Below are positions 4,084 to 7,517 of a stretch of DNA of 11,030 bases, piece by piece (position 1 is the first letter of the stretch; each line of letters opens with the position of its first letter). The stretch spans positions 1 to 11,030 of the forward strand of contig JAGLYR010000188.1 in assembly GCA_023132135.1 (NCBI GenBank), given 5' to 3'. A model generated the notes under the pieces. It saw only the letters and a list, made by a program, of their open reading frames with translations, was not told the origin of the DNA and searched no databases. Both the position numbers and the translations under genes were made by a program. The stretch comes from Candidatus Eiseniibacteriota bacterium (GTDB lineage: Bacteria; Arandabacterota; Arandabacteria; JAGLYR01).

Positions 4084-4213
4084 TGTTATGTGAGGAGATG
4101 AAATATGAAAATGATGGAAGACGTGATATTGAAACATTCAATGGAGATCAGAACAACACCGGAAAAGATCTTCGAGTTCCTTTCCGGCCTTGTAGATGAA
4201 CACTCACATAACA
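4084..4213. repeat. 11-bp inverted repeat bracketing the SRPBCC fragment
   Basis: TGTTATGTGAG (4084-4094) recurs inverted as CTCACATAACA (4203-4213). The left copy overlaps the ribosome binding site of the truncated gene; the right copy begins within three bases of the point where homology to SRPBCC proteins stops. It may mark the rearrangement that cut the gene. The match does not extend beyond 11 bases, so chance is possible. Confidence 0.4.
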
Positions 4214-4302: not shown

Positions 4303-4320
4303 CTTCGTGATCTTCGTGGT
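4303..4320 (-). repeat. ACCACGAAG-type intergenic repeat, copy 1 (inverted)
   Basis: On the minus strand these bases read ACCACGAAGATCACGAAG, differing at two positions from the + strand copy at 4985-5002. From memory, ACCACGAAGNNCACGAAG strings recur widely in intergenic DNA of environmental bacteria. Here the two copies face each other across the NuoE-like gene. Confidence 0.5.
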
Positions 4321-4391: not shown

Positions 4392-4420
4392 TTGCAAGAG
4401 CCGCTCCATCCGGCTAGAAT
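4392..4420 (+). promoter_or_regulatory. sigma70-type promoter of the redox operon
   Basis: TTGCAA (4392-4397, 4 of 6) is followed after exactly 17 bases by TAGAAT (4415-4420, 5 of 6). The start would be near 4427, with a leader of about 50 bases. The perfect inverted repeat CGGCTA-GAA-TAGCCG (4411-4425) contains the -10, so a protein bound there, or the local fold, could control initiation. Confidence 0.55.
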
Positions 4421-4477: not shown

Positions 4478-4939
4478 TTGGACCCCGAAACACTTGAACG
4501 CCTCGACTGCCTGATTGACGAAGCGGGTCTTGAGGAAACCGACCTCATCGGGGCCATGCAGGATATCCAGAGGGAACTGAACTATCTGCCCGAGGAGGCC
4601 ATGCGTCTCGTTGCGCAGAAAATCGGCGTCCCTCTCTCCCAGGTCTACAGCATCGCCACCTTCTACAAGACGTTCTCACTCGAGCCTCGCGGCCGTCACC
4701 TGATCAACGTCTGTATGGGAACGGCCTGCCACGTGCGCGGGGGCGTGCAGATACTGGAGAAGCTGAAACGGATCCTGGGGATCGATACCGGGGGGACAAC
4801 CAACGACCAGCGGTTTTCCCTCGAGGCTGTCCGTTGCCTGGGCTGCTGCGGCCTGGCACCCGTGATCATGATCGACGGGAAATTCCACGGCAAGCTGACA
4901 CAGAAAGGCCTCGACCGGATCCTGGAACAGTACGAGTAG
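4478..4939 (+). CDS. nuoE: NuoE/HndA/HoxE-like [2Fe-2S] diaphorase subunit
   Basis: The 153-residue protein is a thioredoxin-like [2Fe-2S] subunit of the complex I 24-kDa family. The cluster ligands are Cys79 and Cys84 (CMGTACH) and Cys120 and Cys124 (CLGCCG), the C-x4-C and C-x3-C pattern of the family. The N-terminal helical part (LNYLPEEAMRLVAQKIGVPLSQVYSIATFYKTFS) is also characteristic. Length matches the usual 150-165. It starts at TTG 4478 with GGAGA (4466-4470) seven bases ahead; no in-frame ATG upstream is usable. It is the first gene of a three-gene unit, with a 101-base gap to the NuoF-like gene filled by repeats. It should pair with the NuoF-like subunit and relay electrons to or from FMN in the cytoplasm. 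It is close to HydC/HndA of multimeric hydrogenases and equally to NuoE; sequence alone does not separate them. Confidence 0.9.
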   Translation: MDPETLERLDCLIDEAGLEETDLIGAMQDIQRELNYLPEEAMRLVAQKIGVPLSQVYSIATFYKTFSLEPRGRHLINVCMGTACHVRGGVQILEKLKRILGIDTGGTTNDQRFSLEAVRCLGCCGLAPVIMIDGKFHGKLTQKGLDRILEQYE

Positions 4940-4955
4940 CACAGAACGTGGAATC

Positions 4956-4989
4956 GCAAGAGCCCGAACCACGCAAGAGCTCGAACCAC
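4956..4989 (+). repeat. 17-bp tandem duplication
   Basis: GCAAGAGCCCGAACCAC (4956-4972) and GCAAGAGCTCGAACCAC (4973-4989) are adjacent and differ at one base. The second unit merges into the ACCACGAAG-type repeat. It lies between the first and second genes of the redox operon and is not translated. Confidence 0.8.
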
Positions 4990-5002
4990 GAAGGGCACGA
5001 AG
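4985..5002 (+). repeat. ACCACGAAG-type intergenic repeat, copy 2
   Basis: ACCACGAAGGGCACGAAG lies in the gap between the NuoE- and NuoF-like genes, about 40 bases before the NuoF start. It is 16 of 18 identical to the inverted copy at 4303-4320. In an operon transcript the two could pair across the NuoE coding region. Confidence 0.5.
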
Positions 5003-5040
5003 CGTGTTTCTTCCCGGGGTTTCGGGAGTAGGAGTATCCG

Positions 5041-6834
5041 TTGAAAACTTGTCGCACTCATCTCCTGCTCTGCGCCGGGACCGGATGCGTTTCAAACGGC
5101 GCCTTCGAAGTCATGCGCTCGCTGGAAGAGGAAATCAAGCGCCACAACCTGACCGAAGAGGTCTCCATAGTGGCAACGGGCTGCAACGGCTTCTGTGAAC
5201 GCGGGCCCACCATGGTCGTCCAGCCGGACGGTATCTTCTACCAGCGATTGACCGTCGACAAGGTCCCTCACCTCGTGGAAGAGCATTTCCTCAAGGGGCG
5301 CCCGGTCAAAGAGCTCATGTACACCGAGGCCAAGGGCAGGCCTCCCGTCCCCAGGATGAATGACATCGAGTTCTTCCGTCACCAGGTGCTGATTGCTCTG
5401 CGGAACCGGGGACGGATCGACCCGGAGAAGATCGACGAGTACATCGCAAACGACGGGTACGCGGGCCTGGCCAGAATCCTCAAGGAAATGTCCCCGGAGG
5501 AAGTAATCAGCCAGATCAAGAAGTCCGGGTTGCGGGGCCGAGGCGGCGCCGGTTTTCCCACGGGCATGAAGTGGGAGTTCGCTCGTCGCTCTGCCGCAGA
5601 CCTGAAATACATCGTCTGCAACGCGGACGAGGGCGACCCGGGCGCCTTCATGGACCGGAGTATTCTCGAGGCCGATCCTCATTCCGTTCTGGAAGGGATG
5701 CTCATCGGCGCCTACGCCATCGGGGCCTCCAGGGGATTCATCTACATTCGTGAGGAATATCCTCTCGCAGTCGAGCGAATCAAACGGGCCATCCGCGCAG
5801 CCGAGGAGTACGGTCTTCTCGGCGAGAGAATCTTCGGCGCCGCATTCGACTTCTCATTGCGGGTGGTCCGAGGCGCCGGCGCCTTTGTGTGCGGCGAAGA
5901 AACGGCGCTGATGGCATCCATCGAGGGCAAGATGGGGCGCCCGAGGCCGCGCCCTCCCTTCCCCGCCGAATCCGGCCTCTGGGGATGCCCGACCAACATC
6001 AACAATGTTGAAACCTGGTCCAATGTGCCCGTCATCATTCTGCGCGGGGCCGACTGGTATTCCTCGATCGGCACTCCTTCGAGCAAGGGCACCAAGGTAT
6101 TCTCGGTGGTCGGCAAGGTCGAGAATACCGGATTGGTCGAAGTCCCCATGGGAATCACCCTGCGCAAGATCATCTTTGATATCGGGGGAGGCATCCCCGG
6201 TGGCAAGCGCTTCAAGGCAGTCCAGACGGGTGGACCCTCGGGTGGCTGCATCCCAGAGAACAAGCTGGATCTCGAGGTGGACTACGAACAGCTGGCTGAG
6301 GCCGGGGCCATCATGGGCTCCGGCGGACTCATCGTGATGGATGAGGACACCTGCATGGTCGACCTGGCGCGCTACTTCCTGGCCTTCCTGGAGGACGAAT
6401 CTTGCGGGAAATGCGTGCCGTGCCGCGAAGGCCTCCAGAGAATGCACGAGATCCTGGACGACATCACCGAAGGCCGGGGAACCATGGACCATCTCGTTCT
6501 CCTCGAGCGTCTGGCGAACACCGTGAAAAAGGCATCACTCTGTGCATTGGGATCGACAGCACCGAATCCGGTTCTCACCACGCTCCGGTACTTCAGAGAC
6601 GAGTATGAGAGCCATATCAACGAGGGCCGTTGCCCCGCCGGCGTCTGCAAAGCGCTGATCCGGTTTTCCATCGACCCGGAGGCCTGCACCGGCTGCACGG
6701 CGTGCCGGAAGGTATGCCCGACCGATTGCATCGCCGGAGAACGAAAGCAACCACACAAGATCGATCCCGACAGGTGCATCAAGTGCGGGGCCTGTCACGA
6801 GGTGTGCAAGTTCAATGCGGTGCGGAAGACATGA
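5041..6834 (+). CDS. nuoF: NuoF/HydB/HndC-like NAD(P)H-binding diaphorase subunit with fused Fe-S domains
   Basis: A 597-residue flavo-iron-sulfur protein oxidising or reducing NAD(P)H at FMN. In order: a thioredoxin-like [2Fe-2S] domain (Cys11, Cys16, Cys48, Cys52), the Nuo51 NADH/FMN domain with GLRGRGGAGFPTGMKW (163-178) and CNADEGDPGAF (193-203), an SLBB region, the [4Fe-4S] motif ESCGKCVPC with Cys501 (455, 458, 461, 501), and two C-terminal ferredoxin motifs (Cys549/552/555/559 and 579/582/585/589). H525, C531 and C536 (H-x5-C-x4-C) lie between the parts, like the zinc-binding link of bifurcating HydB proteins. Length and layout are those of HydB/HndC rather than plain NuoF (~430). It starts at TTG 5041, six bases after AGGAG. 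It overlaps the next gene by four bases (ATGA), so the two are translationally coupled. Confidence 0.93.
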   Translation: MKTCRTHLLLCAGTGCVSNGAFEVMRSLEEEIKRHNLTEEVSIVATGCNGFCERGPTMVVQPDGIFYQRLTVDKVPHLVEEHFLKGRPVKELMYTEAKGRPPVPRMNDIEFFRHQVLIALRNRGRIDPEKIDEYIANDGYAGLARILKEMSPEEVISQIKKSGLRGRGGAGFPTGMKWEFARRSAADLKYIVCNADEGDPGAFMDRSILEADPHSVLEGMLIGAYAIGASRGFIYIREEYPLAVERIKRAIRAAEEYGLLGERIFGAAFDFSLRVVRGAGAFVCGEETALMASIEGKMGRPRPRPPFPAESGLWGCPTNINNVETWSNVPVIILRGADWYSSIGTPSSKGTKVFSVVGKVENTGLVEVPMGITLRKIIFDIGGGIPGGKRFKAVQTGGPSGGCIPENKLDLEVDYEQLAEAGAIMGSGGLIVMDEDTCMVDLARYFLAFLEDESCGKCVPCREGLQRMHEILDDITEGRGTMDHLVLLERLANTVKKASLCALGSTAPNPVLTTLRYFRDEYESHINEGRCPAGVCKALIRFSIDPEACTGCTACRKVCPTDCIAGERKQPHKIDPDRCIKCGACHEVCKFNAVRKT

Positions 6835-7517
6835 TGACCATCAAGCTGAAGATTGACAAACAGGATATCGAGGTTCCCGAGGGAACAACGATCCTCGAGG
6901 CGGCTCGGATGCTGGGAATCCGGATTCCCACCCTTTGCCATCATGAAGCCCTGAAACCCTACGGAGCCTGCAGGATCTGCCTGGTTGAGGTCCGCGCGGG
7001 AACGGCCCGGGCAAGTACACTGGTTGCCTCCTGCGTGTTCCCGGTCCGCCAAGGTCTGGAGGTCACGACCGACTCAGACGAAATCCGGGAGGTCCGGGCC
7101 GGTCTGCTGGAGCTCCTGTTGGCCCGTTGTCCGGGATCCAGGCAAATCCGGGAGCTGGCCGGGGAATTCGGCGTCCACGAGACACCCTACACGCCTCGCG
7201 ACCATCTGTGCATACTGTGCGGTCTCTGCGTTCGCGTCTGCGACGAAATCGTGGGCGCCCGGGCTATTGACTTCTCCTTCCGAGGACAGGCCCTGGACGT
7301 CAAGCCGCCCTTGTTGACCCCGGCCGGTACCTGTATTGCATGCGGCACGTGCACAACGGTTTGCCCGACCGAGGCAGTGAAACTGGAGGAAATAGCGCGG
7401 GTTCCATATGGACACGCCGTCTCCGAGACACATCCCGGTGAGCGTTGCCGCGTCTGCGGGACACATCCCACAAAGCCGGAGTTTCCCGCGAACTACGACG
7501 ATTGGTTCCCGAAGTAA
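6831..7517 (+). CDS. Short NuoG-N/HoxU-like ferredoxin subunit of the diaphorase
   Basis: The 228-residue product has an N-terminal [2Fe-2S] plant-type domain (Cys36, 47, 50, 68) and two [4Fe-4S] motifs, Cys127/130/133/137 (C-x2-C-x2-C-x3-CDEIVGA) and Cys168/171/174/178 (C-x2-C-x2-C-x3-CP). It corresponds to HoxU or to the N-terminus of NuoG/HydA. The H-x3-C-x2-C-x5-C motif expected between the two parts is missing: the region reads LLELLLARCPGSRQIRELAG, with only Cys100. The C-terminus adds H201, C206-x2-C209 and H212, possible ligands of a metal. No H-cluster or molybdopterin domain follows. The product should collect electrons from the NuoF-like subunit and pass them to an unknown partner or to soluble ferredoxin. 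ATG 6831 (ATGA overlap) is used; ATG 6834 is one codon later and better spaced from GGAAG. A longer in-frame extension into the NuoF gene is not real. Confidence 0.88.
   Translation: MMTIKLKIDKQDIEVPEGTTILEAARMLGIRIPTLCHHEALKPYGACRICLVEVRAGTARASTLVASCVFPVRQGLEVTTDSDEIREVRAGLLELLLARCPGSRQIRELAGEFGVHETPYTPRDHLCILCGLCVRVCDEIVGARAIDFSFRGQALDVKPPLLTPAGTCIACGTCTTVCPTEAVKLEEIARVPYGHAVSETHPGERCRVCGTHPTKPEFPANYDDWFPK

Follow-up and report, generated by a model that had tools for sequence, protein, structure and literature searches.

A BfuABC-type electron-bifurcation trio from a Candidatus Eiseniibacteriota bacterium and its probable Hdr-type partner on another contig

What is the partner of a three-gene NADH diaphorase that has no acceptor subunit encoded beside it? 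The question is raised by an 11,030-base stretch of DNA (hereafter the window) from a Candidatus Eiseniibacteriota bacterium, which is the whole of one contig (C99) in a genome of 3.40 Mb, 345 contigs and 96.4% completeness, and which carries three genes that we name bfuC, bfuB and bfuA:

bfuC, 4478..4939, plus strand: NuoE/HydC-like, 153 amino acids (aa), TTG start; thioredoxin-like [2Fe-2S] subunit with PF01257 and 7t2r_C matches
bfuB, 5041..6834, plus strand: NuoF/HydB-like, 597 aa, TTG start; ligands for clusters B1-B5 and a flavin mononucleotide (FMN)/NADH site
bfuA, 6831..7517, plus strand: short NuoG-N/HoxU-like, 228 aa; [2Fe-2S] and two [4Fe-4S] clusters, with a His...CxxC tail

The original prediction, made from the window, described these genes as a complete diaphorase operon without a catalytic partner, perhaps free-standing or shared among several partners encoded elsewhere. 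We consider it likely that the trio is the BfuABC bifurcating NADH/ferredoxin module of an Hdr-type complex encoded on a different contig (C17) of the same genome, the two being genetically unlinked here. Taken by itself this is an ordinary Bfu trio; its interest lies in the assignment of a partner and in the unlinking.

An Hdr operon beside related trios and on contig C17

The closest BfuB proteins belong to a KSB1 bacterium (L008, 72%; the same as L173, and apparently the same contig as G205:C3) and to G065 (71%). In the KSB1 genome the gene order runs bfuC-bfuB-bfuA-HdrA-MvhD-HdrBC-HdrA-HdrA-MvhD-HdrA/GltD-HdrA, and a trio lies directly upstream of such an Hdr operon on an unbroken contig in six genomes: KSB1, G001, G002, G003 and G007, the last four of the window's own class (with the G002 contig stopping inside the Hdr genes), and the more distant G111. 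In G005 and G065 the assembly breaks inside the same arrangement, with matching ends; in G005 bfuA is followed by a contig break and HdrA1 opens a different contig, whilst in G065 a trio-HdrA1 segment runs into an N-gap and HdrBC-HdrA... begins at another. None of the Hdr-linked trios and Hdr operons examined had a recognisable aldehyde oxidoreductase (AOR) gene next to it, nor was metVF or mvhAG recognised in the Hdr operon, or a BamB-type tungsten subunit in the Hdr-Bfu operons seen. Two peculiarities of these relatives may be recorded here: an Hdr-linked BfuC of 293 aa (L136:7221-8102, with equivalents in L135, L138, L139, L141 and L008), in which, in the L136 protein that was scanned, an N-terminal response-regulator receiver domain (PF00072) is fused to the [2Fe-2S] domain; and iron-hydrogenase-like sensor proteins that close some of the operons (L183:7343-8614, L184:8806-10098).

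In the window's own genome the trio does not stand directly upstream of an HdrA-MvhD-HdrBC operon; the Hdr operon is found without a trio on C17 (L104), its genes in the same order as in the relatives and encoding HdrA1, MvhD, HdrBC, a selenocysteine HdrA, HdrA2, a selenocysteine MvhD and a GltD-bearing type III HdrA. Identity between C17 and KSB1 is 69% for HdrAc and 59% for HdrA2. A partner that is conserved beside the trio in relatives and has moved here, which the original prediction had set against its own reading, is therefore what the Hdr operon on C17 presents, and the descriptions 'free-standing' and 'without a catalytic partner' are not supported. MvhD-type genes occur in this genome only on C17 and C50 (PF02662 search), the latter contig holding a second HdrA-MvhD-HdrCB set together with 2-oxoacid oxidoreductase (POR) genes, and the one other Bfu-type BfuB is of the Nfn/Stn type (C197). 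The two selenoproteins of C17 are probable ones, recognised by in-frame TGA codons in an HdrA gene (DCAIUILAPK) and an MvhD gene (CCNWUAYSAAD); in-frame TGA is also present in the formate dehydrogenase genes of C63 and C163.

Five lines of evidence agree in linking the trio with the Hdr operon. C17-type HdrA was found in 10 sampled genomes out of 386 (G000, G001, G002, G003, G005, G007, G065, G109, G111 and G205), and nine of these also have the trio, which was not seen in G109; the two are distributed over almost identical sets of genomes. In a tree of concatenated BfuC, BfuB and BfuA from 17 taxa the window occupies the basal position among the Hdr-linked trios (support 97/93), and it groups with the Hdr-operon trios again (90/87) in another taxon set that includes G111 and G007. 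The His...CxxC tail of BfuA occurs in the window and in each of the eight Hdr-linked BfuAs, as against none of eight that are unlinked or differently linked. At 12 other loci BfuA is fused in front of HdrA in a single polypeptide, and these fusions are direct evidence that Bfu and HdrA modules work together in related systems. Finally, the composition of the trio and its G+C content at third codon positions match those of C17 and of the rest of the genome, which rules out contamination as its source. The fused proteins measure about 1050-1090 aa (L010, L017, L028, L068, L078, L178 and others); those of L178 and, apparently, L017 adjoin NiFe-hydrogenase genes.

Domains, cofactor ligands and gene boundaries of the trio

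The trio belongs to the Bfu family on all sequence criteria tested and is likely to function as a Bfu enzyme does. All three open reading frames are present at the coordinates first given for them. BfuC matches 2Fe-2S_thioredx (PF01257, 3e-49) and the structure 7t2r_C (E 3e-48), has C79, C84, C120 and C124 as its [2Fe-2S] ligands, and is without the N-terminal extension common to most Hdr-linked BfuC. BfuB contains Complex1_51K (PF01512, 1e-48), NADH_4Fe-4S (PF10589, 7e-34), Fer4 (PF00037), SLBB (PF10531) and an N-terminal 2Fe-2S_thioredx half-domain; it is 62% identical over 594 residues (E 6e-264) to HydB of the bifurcating NiFe-hydrogenase of A. mobile (7t2r_B), with which it is colinear and equal in length. 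Its layout comprises an N-terminal [2Fe-2S] cluster (B5), the FMN/NADH site, a [4Fe-4S] cluster (B1), the B2 [2Fe-2S] set and the C-terminal [4Fe-4S] clusters B3/B4; every cysteine of B1 and B3-B5 is retained, and the B2 set is the unusual C438/T476/H525/C531/C536. Threonine at the position of T476 occurs in about two thirds of BfuB sequences, the histidine corresponding to His525 is conserved and not found in non-bifurcating homologues, and the latter are also without clusters B2-B5 (PMC9304861). The full HydB-type layout claimed at the outset is thus confirmed, and the suggestion that the trio is 'possibly bifurcating' is well supported by this layout, the match to 7t2r_B, the ligands and the BfuC+B+A tree; 'HoxEFU-like' is by comparison a loose label, taken as it is from homologues that do not bifurcate and have none of the B2-B5 clusters of BfuB.

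BfuA matches Fer2_4 (PF13510, 4e-19) and Fer4_7 (PF12838), with [2Fe-2S] ligands at C36, C47, C50 and C68, two [4Fe-4S] clusters (C127-C137 and C168-C178), and a C-terminal tail in which a His is followed by CxxC at C206 and C209. The domains bear out its description as a short NuoG-N/HoxU-like subunit, which had omitted one point: the motif for the His-Cys3 cluster (A3) was not found, C100 being the sole cysteine in that region. Nor is there a further cluster motif (A5) apart from the CxxC of the tail. The best solved structure for BfuA is 9mqx_A, from a bifurcating tungsten aldehyde oxidoreductase (Wor-Bfu), although the match is distant (38%); the predicted monomer structure is poor (pLDDT 59.5, with the dicluster part below 50), and the fold search with it served to identify 9mqx alone.

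Two features lie in front of and between the genes:

bfuC-bfuB gap, 4940..5040, no strand: 101 nt, containing a copy of the ACCACGAAGGGCACGAAG repeat, of which an inverted copy lies at 4303-4320
candidate promoter, 4392..4420, plus strand: TTGCAA-17-TAGAAT, 9/12 matches, at chance level

Shine-Dalgarno-like sequences precede the TTG codons of bfuC (GGAG, 4478) and bfuB (AGGAG, 5041). An ATGA overlap joins bfuB to bfuA, whereas 101 nt separate the stop of bfuC from the start of bfuB, so that the coupling proposed for all three genes is tight for the bfuB-bfuA pair only. The promoter proposed in front of the trio does not exceed chance, with two such matches in the sequence against 1.2 +/- 1.2 in shuffles. 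It does hold that the trio is a complete HydBC-type set (open reading frames, Pfam domains, cluster ligands and colinearity with 7t2r_B) and that the 11,030-base window contains no hydrogenase, formate dehydrogenase, AOR or other acceptor subunit gene in a Pfam scan. Elsewhere in the window, a short frame at 4105-4210, between a GNAT gene and the trio, resembles by eye the start of an SRPBCC-type protein and is apparently a gene remnant; and a 26-nt repeat (TGCAGTGCCACATT core) is present at 86-111, 1544-1569 and 1624-1649, as two direct copies and one inverted, which flank an orphan N6/N4 DNA methylase gene (263-1279).

Alternative partners

Several observations weigh against assigning the trio to the C17 complex. 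Within this genome the link is indirect, trio and operon lying on different contigs with a phosphoesterase gene upstream of HdrA1 in the place that the trio would occupy, and HdrA1 and MvhD1 of C17 are just 34-46% identical to their positional counterparts in relatives, so that for these two, the likely docking subunits, orthology is argued from order and length. A tree of BfuB only leaves the window in a polytomy, and an approximately unbiased (AU) test does not reject its grouping with glutamate-synthase-linked trios (p 0.085). We know of no experiment showing bifurcation by an Hdr-linked Bfu. Lastly, the genome has three AOR-family genes (C44, C173 and C49), one of them preceded by a small FeS protein, and it is to a Wor-Bfu that BfuA finds its best structural match.

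This last pair of facts would fit a trio that serves a tungsten aldehyde oxidoreductase, of Wor-Bfu or Bam-like kind, encoded elsewhere, the more so as Bfu and Hdr modules are combined in the known Bam-Bfu (PMC9304861); yet the resemblance to 9mqx_A is the distant one given above, none of the three genes is linked to the trio or to Hdr genes, and the Hdr-linked trios and Hdr operons of relatives have no recognisable AOR at their side, which leaves this a slim prospect. Hardly better placed is a free-standing NAD(P)H:ferredoxin oxidoreductase with no need of a third partner. It accords with the lack of an acceptor gene on the contig, and with two Spirochaetota loci (L011 and L012) that have BfuB-BfuA and no catalytic subunit nearby, one of them adjoining Rnf; but BfuA in Bfu enzymes carries electrons between the core and the third partner (PMC9304861), the Spirochaete BfuAs are without the His...CxxC tail, and the trios of the window's clade are Hdr-linked wherever their context is visible, so we regard it as improbable. 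Much the same applies to a single unlinked module common to two Hdr complexes, that of C17 and the POR-associated HdrA/MvhD/HdrCB of C50: unlinking lifts the constraint to one partner and a second set is indeed there to be served, but in no relative was a trio seen beside a C50-type set and the BfuA tail tracks the C17-type operon. What survives of the proposal of a module shared among partners encoded elsewhere is that a partner is so encoded, narrowed now to most likely one and possibly two Hdr complexes.

Two further candidates are given very little credence. Complex I NuoF was not found in the genome, other complex I subunits not having been searched for, and an orphan 11-subunit complex I, if present, could take the trio as its NADH input module; such a Nuo-Bfu is however Type 3, with A3 in BfuA (PMC9304861), and A3 is missing here, making this very unlikely. 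Related trios with a short BfuC and a BfuA of 226-259 aa precede a protein of about 526 aa (L035, L037, L040, L140, L152, L177 and L179; bfuC not always seen), which in the one scanned (L140, 6548-8128) is a glutamate-synthase-domain protein (PF01645). These trios may represent a separate Bfu type, with a partner absent from the published Bfu list. That the window's trio is such a module whose partner gene has been lost would agree with the AU test, but the tail motif differs and the genome has no glutamate synthase match above cut-off (one lies below it), and we think this the least credible of all.

Among other redox enzymes, the genome encodes no [NiFe]-hydrogenase large subunit, and its single Fe_hyd_lg_C match (PF02906; C42, L105:4110-6176) is of a sensor type, without the L1-L3 motifs of the H-cluster. 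The formate dehydrogenases were also set aside as partners: that of C63 has its own NuoEF fusion, that of C162 looks to be of a membrane type and precedes FeS and membrane subunit genes, that of C163 is a mere fragment at a contig end, and that of C197 is fused to Nfn-Bfu.

Proposed electron flow and comparison with known systems

Returning to the C17 operon as the favoured partner, we propose a model by analogy with the families concerned (PMC9304861; PMC12054007 for type III HdrA; PMC9430772 for the Moorella and Sporomusa Hdr-MTHFR). From these families the formation of a physical complex in this organism, bifurcation itself, its direction and the terminal substrate are inferred; the genes present, their cluster ligands, the gene order of relatives, co-occurrence across genomes and the BfuA-HdrA fusions are observed. 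NADH and the FMN of BfuB would swap hydride, ferredoxin would exchange electrons through the C-terminal B3/B4 clusters, and the B2-FMN-C1 triad would merge or split the high- and low-potential electrons; those of mid-potential (about -400 mV) would be relayed between BfuB and BfuA, to or from HdrA1/MvhD. A second redistribution might then occur at the HdrA flavins, among HdrBC (with a disulfide, thiol or other acceptor), ferredoxin and, via GltD, NAD(P)H. We also entertain, as a rather unlikely extension, a tandem double-bifurcation machine of Bfu and Hdr/type III HdrA that has no terminal oxidoreductase of its own and connects NADH, ferredoxin and NAD(P)H with a thiol or disulfide; the unlinked Bfu would then be a port into which at least two Hdr complexes could plug, that of C17 and the POR-linked one of C50.

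In the 2022 survey of Bfu enzymes 17 clades had no third substrate assigned to them (PMC9304861), and the Hdr-linked trios offer a concrete partner for one set of Bfu modules. They would also bring two unrelated bifurcation chemistries (the FMN-FeS of Bfu and the FAD of HdrA) into one predicted complex outside benzoyl-CoA degradation. More generally, a diaphorase can seem an 'orphan' only because a single contig is viewed, its partner being findable through synteny in relatives, co-occurrence and fusions.

Set beside known systems, the trio differs from several. In the complex I N-module (NuoEFG), NuoF has no C-terminal Fer4 and NuoG is long with a His-Cys3 cluster, the reverse of BfuB and BfuA here; HoxF of the Hox diaphorase (HoxEFU/HoxYH) is without the C-terminal dicluster that BfuB has, and the NiFe large subunit that would accompany it is missing from the genome. 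Unlike its counterpart in the bifurcating [FeFe]-hydrogenase HydABC, BfuA stops at 228 aa with no H-cluster domain. Stn/Nfn-Bfu (8oh5, 9bov) has the same BfuBC core, but its BfuA carries a fused, NADPH-binding Nfn domain that is lacking here; an enzyme of that type is encoded separately on C197. The A. mobile NiFe-HydABCSL (7t2r) and the tungsten aldehyde oxidoreductase (9mqx) supply the best matches for BfuB and BfuA respectively, though neither a hydrogenase nor a tungsten subunit is linked to the trio.

From the Hdr side, FlxABCD-HdrABC, HdrCBA-MvhD-MetVF and type III HdrA complexes (PMC12054007, PMC9430772) resemble the C17 operon in their HdrA/HdrBC/MvhD composition, and the Moorella MTHFR HdrA and type III HdrA share with it a GltD inserted in HdrA (PMC9430772, PMC12054007); the difference is that NADH would here enter by the BfuABC trio, rather than by Flx or GltD alone, and that neither metVF nor mvhAG was recognised in the operon. 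From the Bfu side, the trio is most like Type 2, in which BfuA has neither A3 nor A5 and electrons come from separate partner subunits (PMC9304861): it has the BfuB/BfuC cofactor set, B2 ligands included, and a BfuA with [2Fe-2S] and two [4Fe-4S] clusters and no A3, and its partner subunits are expected as separate polypeptides. The partners named in that survey (Schut et al. 2022) are FeFe, NiFe, Fdh, Nfn, F420, Wor, Bam, Por, Codh, Mbh, Nuo and Rub (PMC9304861); they do not include an Hdr/MvhD complex that lacks any further catalytic subunit, and the window departs from the type also in having its partner genes unlinked. A literature search found no description of an Hdr-Bfu operon that lacks a terminal tungsten subunit, priority being in this respect not fully checkable. 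An architectural parallel is Bam-Bfu, the class II benzoyl-CoA reductase BamBCDEFGHI, from which the Hdr-Bfu operons differ in their extra HdrA copies, their GltD-bearing HdrA and the want of a recognised BamB-type subunit; in both, a BfuABC module (BamGHI) is combined with an HdrA-type bifurcating module, which would place two bifurcation sites in series.

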